From Actinomycetes bacterium (lineage in GTDB: Bacteria; Actinomycetota; Acidimicrobiia; Acidimicrobiales; Microtrichaceae), in the NCBI GenBank assembly GCA_029782335.1, contig JAKOVA010000245.1:1-64000 (forward strand): a stretch of DNA of 64,000 bases, given 5' to 3'. Under the pieces are notes generated by a model, which saw only the letters and a program-made list of their open reading frames with translations, ran no database searches and had not been told where the DNA came from. Every line of letters begins with the position of its first letter. Position 1 is the stretch's first letter. Of this stretch, positions 59,734 through 64,000 are shown piece after piece. A program made the position numbers and the translations under genes.

Positions 59734-61548
59734 TTGAACACCCCGTCGACGCCCATCACCGACGTCAGGCTCCGCGAGATGTACCTGGCGTTCTTCGTTG
59801 ATCGCGGCCACGCCGTGATCCCCAGTGCATCGTTGGTCCCCCAGGACGACCCGACGGTCCTGTTCACCACGGCCGGGATGCATCCGCTCACGCCGTATCT
59901 CAAGGGCCAGACCCACCCGTCGGGCACCCGCCTGGTGGACTGCCAGAAGTGCGTCCGTACCACCGACATCGATGATGTCGGCGACCCGAGCCATCTCACG
60001 TTCTTCGAGATGCTGGGCAACTGGTCACTCGGCGACTACTACAAGAACGAGTCGATCCGCTGGAGCTACGAGTTCCTCACCGATCCGCAGTACCTCGGCA
60101 TCGACCCGCAGCGTCTCTGGATCACGATCTTCGAGGGCAACGATGTGGTGCCCCGAGACGACGAGAGCGCCGAGGTCTGGCGCAGCCTGGGCATTCCCGA
60201 CGAGCGCATCATCGCTCTGGGCGAGGACGACAACTGGTGGTCGGCGGGCGCGGAGGGCGCGTGCGGCCCCGACACCGAGATCTTCATGGACCGCACCGGC
60301 GTGCCGTGTGCACGCGGCGACGAGTGCCTGCCCGGCACCTGCGACTGCGACCGGTTCTTCGAGATCTGGAACAACGTGTTCATGTCCTACGAGCGGCGCG
60401 GCGGCGAGATCACTCCGCTGCCCAACCGCAACGTCGACACGGGCATGGGGCTCGAACGCACCGTCGCGATGCTCAACGACCTGCCGTCGGTCTACGAGAT
60501 CCCCACCCTCGTGGAGATCCGCAACTCGATCACCGAACCGCTCGAGGTAGCCCCCACCGGCGAGGCCGCCGCTCGCGCGCTGCGAATCCTCGTGGACCAC
60601 CTCCGCGCCGCGGTGTTCATCATCGGTGACACCACGAGCACCCTGCCGAGCAACCAAGGGCGCGGCTATGTCGTGCGTCGGCTCATTCGTCGTTCGGTCC
60701 GCGTCGCGCAGAGCCTCGGCCTCGACCCGTACCACTGGGCTGACTGTTCGCTGCGGGTGATCGACCTCTACGGCGAGGTCTACCCCGAACTCGAGCGCCA
60801 TCGCAGCTTGATCCATGACGAGCTCCGCGCCGAGTGTGAGCGGTTCCTCACCACCCTGCACCGGGGTATGCGCAAGCTCGAGTCCGAGATCGAGTCGTTG
60901 GTCGCTGAGGGCGGGGGAGTGCTGTCGGGGGAGGTCGCCTTCCACCTCTACGACACCGACGGTTTCCCCGTGGATCTCACCCAGGAGGTCGCCCGCGAGG
61001 CTGGGCTCGAAGTTGACATCGACGATTTCGAACGTCGCTTCGCCGAGCACCGCGACCGCTCACGCGGCCAGCGCGCTGCGGGTGGCCTCGCCGACGACAG
61101 CGAGGAGAGCGTGCGCTACCACACCGCGACGCACCTGCTGCACGCCGCGCTGCGCGAGGTGCTGGGTGACCACGTCGTGCAGAAGGGGTCGAACATCACC
61201 CGTGAGCGGCTGCGCTTCGACTTCAGCCACCATGCCGCGATGACCCCCGAGGAAGTGGCGAAGGTGACCGCCCTCGTCCAGGAACAGATCGACCGTGGCA
61301 TCGCCGTCGAGCGTGAGGTGATGACCATTCCCGAGGCTCGCGCCGCGGGCGCGATCGGCCTGTTCGACGACAAGTACGAGGGCGACGTCTCCGTCTATCG
61401 GGTCCCCGGCTTCTCCCTGGAGTTCTGCGGTGGACCGCACGTGGCCAACACCGGCGAGCTCGGCCATTTCCGCATCGTCAAAGAACAATCCGCCGGTGCG
61501 GGGGTGCGCCGGATCCGAGCGGAGCTGGAACCGAAGAGCGCCGCGTAA
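59734..61548 (+). CDS. alaS: Short alanyl-tRNA synthetase lacking the C-Ala domain
   Basis: This encodes 604 residues from TTG 59734. The class II catalytic domain has FFVDRGHAVIPSASLVP, TAGMHPLTPYLKGQ, FEMLGNWSLGDYYK and NVDTGMGLERTVAML; the tRNA-recognition region and the editing domain follow, with zinc ligands HTATH and CGGPH (P in place of the usual T). The protein stops right after the editing domain (GHFRIVKEQSAGAGVRRIRA), about 270 residues short of typical AlaRS. The DHHA1/C-Ala domain is missing with no frameshift or following fragment, so the short form looks natural. It could be the only AlaRS or a second copy. Confidence 0.93.
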   Translation: MNTPSTPITDVRLREMYLAFFVDRGHAVIPSASLVPQDDPTVLFTTAGMHPLTPYLKGQTHPSGTRLVDCQKCVRTTDIDDVGDPSHLTFFEMLGNWSLGDYYKNESIRWSYEFLTDPQYLGIDPQRLWITIFEGNDVVPRDDESAEVWRSLGIPDERIIALGEDDNWWSAGAEGACGPDTEIFMDRTGVPCARGDECLPGTCDCDRFFEIWNNVFMSYERRGGEITPLPNRNVDTGMGLERTVAMLNDLPSVYEIPTLVEIRNSITEPLEVAPTGEAAARALRILVDHLRAAVFIIGDTTSTLPSNQGRGYVVRRLIRRSVRVAQSLGLDPYHWADCSLRVIDLYGEVYPELERHRSLIHDELRAECERFLTTLHRGMRKLESEIESLVAEGGGVLSGEVAFHLYDTDGFPVDLTQEVAREAGLEVDIDDFERRFAEHRDRSRGQRAAGGLADDSEESVRYHTATHLLHAALREVLGDHVVQKGSNITRERLRFDFSHHAAMTPEEVAKVTALVQEQIDRGIAVEREVMTIPEARAAGAIGLFDDKYEGDVSVYRVPGFSLEFCGGPHVANTGELGHFRIVKEQSAGAGVRRIRAELEPKSAA

Positions 61549-61551
61549 CCC

Positions 61552-62766
61552 TCAGCGATAAGCGACGGCAACGGGCGAGTCGGCCGCGACGCCCGCGGCA
61601 TGGTTCCACCGTCGCCAGAGATGACGCAGCCAGCGGGGCCGCCGATCGCCGTGCACCGCCTCGACGACCAGCGCCGAGACCCGTCGGTCGAACGCGTCCG
61701 CCTCCTCAAGTGCGTCGAGCATGCCCGGCCGTTGGTCGATCCAGCGAGCCTGGATCGCGTCGCGTTCGTTCCGCAGCGCCCCCAACGTCGCCGGGAGATC
61801 CGCCAGCGCCGCACGGTGGATCACCTCATGCCGCCACCAGCGGATCTCCGGGTCGTACCGGTTCGACCCCGGCGCTTCCGCGGGCAGCGAGCCGTCGAGG
61901 GGGAGTGGCAGGAACAGCGACATGCACGGCGCCGAGGTTCCCGTCGCCCAGACGTCGACGCCACCGCGGAGATCGGCAATCCATGAGGCGGTGGTCTGCG
62001 ATGCCGTCGCGAGCCCCCCAGCGTGAACACACGGCGCAGCGAGCGTCCCGTTGAGCAGCGACCACGACGGCCCGAGCCCGGCGCCGTGGTCCGAAAGGAG
62101 GGTAACCATGTCGAGGACGCCGCTCGCCGCGCAGGCCGCACGCTCGGTGCGCGCACGCCGCGAGCGACCGGCGGCGACGTACTCACGCAGCGGGTCACGG
62201 TGGGCCTCGGCGAACCCAGCGATGGTGAGCCCGTTGGAGATCGAACGGGCTGGTCCACGAACCGTCTCGACCGCCCAGTCCCTGCCCGCCGTCTCGAGCA
62301 CCATCGCCCCGTCGCGGTCGGCGATGAGGAACGAGTTGTCGTAGGTGAAACCCGGCCGCTCGTGGCTGCAGGGCCCACCTTGGCCGTGGCGCTCGAGCAG
62401 CCCGACGATCACCTCCACCGCTTCGGCCGCATGCTGGGCCCGCTCCAACGCGAGCCGCACGAGGTCCATTCCCAGCAGCGCAGGCGGGCCGGCCTTCGAC
62501 TTCGTGAACACCGCCTCGTTGCCGATGGTGAGGCCGAACTCGTTGGTCCCCATCTCCGCGCCCCACATCCACCAGGGCTGCGACACGACGACGGCATGGG
62601 TGTGCGCCACCTGGGGGATCTCGATCCAGGTACACCGCAAGGTCGAACCGTTCGGGTGATCCGCCGCGGGGTACCAGCGGATCTGTTGCGCTTCGTTCGG
62701 GTCGCGGTCGCTGTTCTTTGCGAACAGCACACCGTCGGGACCCAACGCGACCGCCGTGTCGCACAT
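61552..62766 (-). CDS. C69/secernin-like Ntn hydrolase (dipeptidase)
   Basis: This encodes 404 residues from ATG 62766. It begins MCDTAVALGPDGVLFAKNSD: Cys2 is the N-terminal nucleophile after Met removal, and K-N-S-D-R-D is a C69 motif. GANEFGL-like GTNEFGLTIGNEAVF, ALLGMDLVRLALERA and NSFLIADRDGAMVLE are typical of secernin-type peptidases. There is no signal peptide. It is convergent with alaS (3 bp between stops). Confidence 0.88.
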   Translation of the reverse strand: MCDTAVALGPDGVLFAKNSDRDPNEAQQIRWYPAADHPNGSTLRCTWIEIPQVAHTHAVVVSQPWWMWGAEMGTNEFGLTIGNEAVFTKSKAGPPALLGMDLVRLALERAQHAAEAVEVIVGLLERHGQGGPCSHERPGFTYDNSFLIADRDGAMVLETAGRDWAVETVRGPARSISNGLTIAGFAEAHRDPLREYVAAGRSRRARTERAACAASGVLDMVTLLSDHGAGLGPSWSLLNGTLAAPCVHAGGLATASQTTASWIADLRGGVDVWATGTSAPCMSLFLPLPLDGSLPAEAPGSNRYDPEIRWWRHEVIHRAALADLPATLGALRNERDAIQARWIDQRPGMLDALEEADAFDRRVSALVVEAVHGDRRPRWLRHLWRRWNHAAGVAADSPVAVAYR

Positions 62767-62827: not shown

Positions 62828-64000
62828 TCAGCCGCGGTCGCGACGCACGTTCGCCCGCTTGCCGCGGATGGTGGTCTCCCGCATCGCGGCCACGACGTGA
62901 TCCGCACGGTTGGCGGGGACATCGACGAGGGAGAAGCGGTCCGCGATGTCGATCGGCCCGATGTCACGGCCCGACAACCCGCTTTCGCCGGCAATCGCCC
63001 CGACGAGATCGCCCGGCCGGACGCCCGCTGCGCGGCCGGCATTGACGAAAAGGCGCACCTTGCCTTTGGCGGGTGGGCCGAGGCGGCCGCGGCCGGCGCC
63101 GCGGGTAGCGCGATCGCCTCGCATCGGCCCGCCCCGATCACGATCGTCGGGCCCGCGGCGGCCGTCCCGATCACGCCAGTCGCTGTCACGCCGGCCGTCA
63201 CGGCGGGCCGATCGCGACGGCTGCGCGGTGCGTTCGCCGCGCTGGGGACGCAGGGGCACGTCGGGGATCTCTGCGTCGTCCTCAGCAGCCGACTGATCGT
63301 GGAGCAGCTGTGCCGCAGCGAGCGCGACTTCGACGATGTCGTACTCGTCGGCGAGGGAGTCGATCGTTGCGCGCATGGACTCGAGGTCGCCGCGCACGAG
63401 CCGCTCACGGATGGCCTCGGTGGTGAGCTCGACGCGGCGGGCGGCGAGATCTGCGACCGACGGCACCTTCCGGACCGGCAGCGAACGCCCGATGGACGCC
63501 TCGATGTTCTTGATGAGTCGATGCTCACGGGGCTCGGCAAGGGTGATCGCGACCCCCGCTCGTCCGGCGCGACCCACCCGGCCGATGCGATGAACGTAGG
63601 ACTCGGGAGCGGAGGGCACGTCGAAGTTCACGACGTGGGTGAGCAGATCGATGTCGAGGCCGCGGGCGGCGACGTCGGTCGCCAACAACAACTCCGCGGT
63701 CCCGGCGCGCAGACGGCTCATGACCCGTTCGCGCTGTTCCTGGCTCATGCCGCCATGCAGTGCCTCGGCGCGGTAGCCGCGGCCGTTCATGGTCTCGTTG
63801 AGCTGGTCGACTTCCGTGCGGGTCCGGCAAAACACCAGGGTCGCGGCGGGTGCCTCGACGTCGAGCAGCCGTCCCAATGCCGCCGGCTTGTGCGAACGGG
63901 GCACGACGTACACCGTCTCACGGATCTGTGCGTCGTCGGCTGCGGTGTGGCGGGGCGAGCTAATCTCGATGCGCTGCGGATCGTTGAGGTGGTGCCGAGC
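62828..64000 (-). CDS. DEAD-box RNA helicase (DeaD/CsdA type), N-terminus outside the window
   Basis: This holds 390 residues of the C-terminal part; the frame is open to the window end (first codon GCT, 64000-63998). The helicase C domain has VFCRTRTEVDQL, ALHGGMSQEQRERV, ATDVAARGLDI and HRIGRVGRAGRAG. It is followed by a linker, an Arg/Asp-rich low-complexity tail (about 230-290 of this part), and an RNA-binding DbpA domain (GKVRLFVNAGRAAGVRPGDL...). RNA unwinding in ribosome assembly or cold adaptation is likely. The DEAD box itself lies beyond the window. Confidence 0.95.
   Translation of the reverse strand, partial: ARHHLNDPQRIEISSPRHTAADDAQIRETVYVVPRSHKPAALGRLLDVEAPAATLVFCRTRTEVDQLNETMNGRGYRAEALHGGMSQEQRERVMSRLRAGTAELLLATDVAARGLDIDLLTHVVNFDVPSAPESYVHRIGRVGRAGRAGVAITLAEPREHRLIKNIEASIGRSLPVRKVPSVADLAARRVELTTEAIRERLVRGDLESMRATIDSLADEYDIVEVALAAAQLLHDQSAAEDDAEIPDVPLRPQRGERTAQPSRSARRDGRRDSDWRDRDGRRGPDDRDRGGPMRGDRATRGAGRGRLGPPAKGKVRLFVNAGRAAGVRPGDLVGAIAGESGLSGRDIGPIDIADRFSLVDVPANRADHVVAAMRETTIRGKRANVRRDRG

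Follow-up and report, generated by a model that had tools for sequence, protein, structure and literature searches.

A short alanyl-tRNA synthetase without C-Ala that appears to have displaced the canonical enzyme in a lineage of Microtrichaceae

According to a review, every alanyl-tRNA synthetase (AlaRS) has a C-Ala domain linked to its editing domain, and editing collapses without it (PMC3158927). The window, a stretch of 64,000 nucleotides from a draft genome of the family Microtrichaceae (G000), holds an alaS gene whose product ends just after the editing core. The locus raises the question of whether such a protein is a natural enzyme in use and, if so, whether it does the whole alanine-charging job of its host. 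The features that bear on this question are as follows.

59734..61548, plus strand: short alaS, 604 aa, PRK01584-type alanine--tRNA ligase, TTG start
59770..61134, plus strand: class II catalytic and tRNA-recognition domains (Pfam tRNA-synt_2c, model positions 2-453 of 552; AlphaFold superposition)
60262..60372, plus strand: four-cysteine loop CGPDTE...EIWN (C192, C198, C203, C205), putative metal site
61063..61092, plus strand: flexible linker, aa 444-453, which stands where canonical enzymes have the beta-barrel and connects the aminoacylation part straight to the editing core
61105..61527, plus strand: editing core, aa 458-598, metal motifs HTATH (463-467) and CGGPH (565-569)
61552..62764, minus strand: convergent gene, putatively Ntn-hydrolase/C69-like; no Pfam match, start approximate
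62828..64000, minus strand: DEAD-box helicase (Helicase_C and DbpA), running off the window

The gene and its domain architecture

The preliminary description of this DNA had taken the gene for a natural-looking short AlaRS without C-Ala and without the remains of a frameshift, and both points hold: the reading frame contains 0 stops and 0 frameshifts, the chain stops ~35 aa past CGGPH, and none of the downstream frames yields a C-Ala. TTG is a plausible start codon, because the copy in the sole congener examined (G001) also has TTG at the same place. Pfam recognizes an aminoacylation part (aa 13-467) and tRNA_SAD (aa 552-594) and nothing else. Alignment with canonical AlaRSs of the same order reveals two absences, namely the C-Ala domain itself (~165 aa), with its helical and DHHA1-like portions, and a Gly-rich beta-barrel of ~100 aa that canonically lies between the tRNA-recognition domain and the editing core. 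Of the catalytic, tRNA-recognition and editing domains earlier called complete, Pfam and NCBIfam match the first two and tRNA_SAD, but the editing part has lost its beta-barrel, and the tRNA-synt_2c match breaks off at model position 453 of 552. In the AlphaFold model (mean pLDDT 86, pTM 0.69), two well-formed parts flank the low-confidence linker; the model superposes on the AlaRS catalytic fragments 1riq and 9jc7 with a TM-score by target of 0.81-0.84, and the PDB match of the editing core is AlaX (1v7o/1wnu). The class II motifs and the residues for G3:U70 recognition are present.

Set against the canonical bacterial enzyme (TIGR00344, exemplified by E. coli and A. aeolicus), the window protein shares the catalytic and tRNA-recognition domains, the editing core and the metal motifs. 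The canonical enzyme differs in its beta-barrel, its C-Ala, its CGGTH motif and its length of ~870 aa, and in this order its gene adjoins ruvX. The stand-alone AlaX trans-editing proteins, in turn, have the fold and metal motifs of the editing core in common with the short enzyme but no synthetase part, and AlaX-M retains the very beta-barrel that the short AlaRS lost.

Membership of a curated family

The short AlaRS is no local oddity; on its profile match it is a member of a large curated family. It scores 775 bits against NCBIfam NF002436/PRK01584 (cut-off 529), and since the match spans positions 5-593 of the 595-position model, its length is normal for that family. All 29 aligned relatives match NF002436 too. 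Members occur in spirochaetes, Clostridia, Patescibacteria and some archaea; like the window protein, they are ~580-650 aa long and have CGGPH, no beta-barrel and no C-Ala. In other groups, 12 genomes with a short AlaRS were tested, and none of them has any further AlaRS. Unlike the other members, the window protein comes from a lineage of high GC in which the other genera sampled retain the canonical enzyme, and it sits on a deep branch of its own with one metagenomic relative. Gene order and GC content make it probable that this lineage is actinobacterial. In the tree, the window, congener and metagenomic sequences form one clade (100/99) inside the short family, while the canonical AlaRSs of the order form a separate clade (100/100). 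The metagenomic sequence (58% identity), the nearest relative beyond the congener, comes from a 3.7-kb contig of doubtful taxonomy.

Two residue patterns set the family apart. The second metal motif had been read correctly as CGGPH in the preliminary description, but this is the family rule: its proline (P568) occurs in 82 of 82 short enzymes, whereas the canonical motif has threonine (25 of 25). By this count CGGPH is a signature of the short family and not a quirk of the window protein, a signature found in the present comparison and lying outside the curated NF002436 definition. The second pattern is the cysteine loop in the catalytic domain, shared by the window protein with most NF002436 members. 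It carries four cysteines in 61 of the 82 short enzymes, three in 4 and is absent from 17; none of the 25 canonical AlaRSs of the order has it, their equivalent position being a Gly-rich loop. Metal binding by the four cysteines is putative.

The family is already catalogued but little studied, and a literature search by the accessions PRK01584 and NF002436 found no paper discussing it. The AlaRSs of well-studied spirochaetes are about as long as the window protein, so specialists may already know of short AlaRSs. The cysteine loop appears to be new, as does the proposed displacement of alaS with its vacant slot, described below.

Within the order, a sample of 298 genomes yielded no other short AlaRS at the threshold used, and in a phylum sample of 397 genomes the only other match was in genome G363 (L191, contig C154). 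That genome also encodes a canonical AlaRS of 882 aa, and the contig with the short gene carries Patescibacteria-like genes, so the match may reflect contamination of the assembly; it was not counted as a further case within the phylum. A further short AlaRS, 49% identical to that of the window, is encoded by a 114-kb database entry labelled as a gut phage sequence and marked unverified (L192, MT835476.1:53587-55347); its partner in the tree is a Clostridia sequence.

The empty alaS slot and competing explanations

Several observations bear on whether the short gene is in use. The two copies encode proteins 84% identical, and their divergence (dN 0.116, dS 0.876, dN/dS ~0.13) indicates that the gene is under purifying selection in both species. 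Three tRNA-Ala genes were found, all with G3:U70 and A73. Taken together, the sequence evidence gives good support to a natural, functional short AlaRS.

The AlaRS complement of G000 (75% complete) consists of the short enzyme only, plus AlaX, and G001 likewise has the short alaS and AlaX and no canonical AlaRS; the full-length enzyme whose presence elsewhere would, on the preliminary description, have made this gene a relic was found in neither. Of 59 further relatives that were searched, most by far have a canonical AlaRS of ~870 aa, while a few, in incomplete assemblies, have none or fragments only. Because some incomplete assemblies thus appear to lack any AlaRS, bare absence is weak evidence. 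The main support for replacement is instead positional, and it is strong. The ancestral order rarA–small–tiny–alaS–ruvX–mltG–aroE, seen in G005, G009 and G010, reads rarA–small–tiny–ruvX–mltG–aroE in G000. There it lies inside an 80-kb contig, the stop of the tiny gene overlaps the ruvX start, and the junction contains no N. A remnant of canonical alaS at this ruvX locus was sought and rejected, as matches stayed at chance level. This vacancy was observed in G000 alone, the G001 assembly having no ruvX. The genes beside the short alaS are, as had been noted, not ruvX and mltG. As a separate observation, the C-terminus of rarA (mgsA) in G000 (L032:8514-10120), near the empty slot, appears shortened or frameshifted relative to its relatives.

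Since the position that canonical alaS normally occupies is cleanly vacant, the short enzyme very probably carries out all of the alanine charging. We consider it highly likely, on these sequence comparisons, that a short AlaRS was acquired and took the place of the canonical enzyme, that it charges tRNA-Ala independently of C-Ala and that it edits with its own core together with AlaX. A PRK01584-type short alaS would have been acquired by an ancestor of the genus and would have taken over, the canonical alaS then being cleanly deleted from its operon; gain of the short gene followed by loss of the canonical one is the order of events we infer. A conserved site lacking the short gene was not found in relatives, where only the helicase is common to the surroundings of the helicase.

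The short AlaRS could conversely be a second enzyme, inhibitor-resistant or specialized, with a canonical AlaRS hidden in the quarter of the genome that the assembly lacks. G000 and G001 are MAG-like drafts, both ~75% complete, and a relocated canonical alaS may lie in their missing parts. Two Bacillales plasmids, moreover, carry a short AlaRS in a biosynthesis-like cluster, which suggests self-immunity and invites comparison with the AcmD/AcmF pair of ascamycin. Yet the ancestral slot in G000 is vacant and no canonical gene was found in G001, no biosynthesis-like cluster flanks the window gene, and the sole-AlaRS status in all 12 other hosts also speaks against an accessory role, which we regard as quite improbable. 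The plasmid loci are of interest in themselves (L189, NZ_CP053558.1:82620-84407; L190, NZ_CP068052.1:43386-45173): they share a cluster of an AlaRS-related protein, an AsnA-like protein, a methyltransferase, an ATP-grasp ligase, an S66 peptidase and an MFS pump, and by analogy the function of their short AlaRS may be self-immunity.

Still less probable, to the point of being hard to credit, is that the contig was binned from another organism and that a canonical alaS is present in the genome proper. The draft consists of 309 contigs, and the possible contamination in G363 illustrates the hazard. However, in the congener the same downstream genes accompany its 84%-identical copy, the convergent gene (whose stop at 61552 lies 3 nt past that of alaS) adjoining it there too; the helicase two genes on has orthologues 59-65% identical in same-family genomes, which places the contig in this lineage; the GC content of the region agrees with that of the genome (0.67-0.69); and the bin itself has no alaS in the canonical slot. 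Least probable of all is a relic or truncated canonical alaS, for although the window enzyme is shorter than that of its relatives, it falls within the separate short family, the loss of both domains is family-wide, dN/dS is low and the motifs are intact.

Proposed charging and proofreading without C-Ala

If the short AlaRS replaced the canonical enzyme, it would have to work without C-Ala. The preliminary description had envisaged a monomer or a separate partner, and proposed a search for stand-alone C-Ala/DHHA1 or AlaX proteins. The partner was rejected: a profile of the order's own C-Ala detected no DHHA1 or stand-alone C-Ala in G000 or G001 even at E<=1, while at the same threshold it found C-Ala in 10 of 10 relatives. 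The short AlaRS is probably a monomer. AlaX did turn up, both species encoding an AlaX-M-like trans-editing protein without C-Ala (L038:3-644, cut by the contig end in G000; L037:7811-8593). A role for it as specific compensation for the short enzyme was rejected, because AlaX-like proteins are also encoded by relatives whose AlaRS is canonical.

In the proposed mechanism, the conserved aminoacylation domain would recognize the acceptor stem (G3:U70) and nothing beyond it, the tRNA elbow not being held by C-Ala. The Tupanvirus AlaRS, which has no C-Ala, charges tRNA-Ala and acceptor-stem RNA (PMC10036535), and an E. coli AlaRS fragment comprising residues 1-700 is reported to be a monomer that charges like the wild type (PMC4649089); by analogy with these, charging without C-Ala is credible for the short AlaRS. 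The Tupanvirus mini-AlaRS resembles it in being a natural AlaRS without C-Ala, but has no editing domain and is related to the AlaRS of its eukaryotic hosts (PMC10036535). Editing without C-Ala is less certain than charging, because removal of C-Ala from the isolated editing domain lowered editing ~1000-fold in the enzyme studied (PMC3158927). Here, the editing core on its short flexible linker, active without C-Ala, and the stand-alone AlaX would together clear Ser-tRNA-Ala and Gly-tRNA-Ala. The conserved editing motifs and the presence of AlaX suggest that proofreading is kept in this organism.

A bolder proposal can be built on the family as a whole. Three glycines of the A. fulgidus AlaRS are described as a separator of CCA-end routes (PMC10036535). 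A widespread class of AlaRS might charge and proofread as a monomer with a single tRNA and no C-Ala, the linker swinging the editing core, the putative four-cysteine metal loop of the family, which may lie near the CCA-route glycines, helping to steer the acceptor end, and resistance to natural AlaRS inhibitors having driven both the spread of the class and the replacement of canonical alaS. In this full form the proposal is speculative and rather unlikely.

As the sole AlaRS of the tested hosts, the short family is an exception to the rule that all AlaRSs have C-Ala. The window lineage, in which the canonical gene appears displaced while relatives retain alaS, offers a clean case of essential-gene replacement and a natural test of the need for C-Ala in charging and proofreading.
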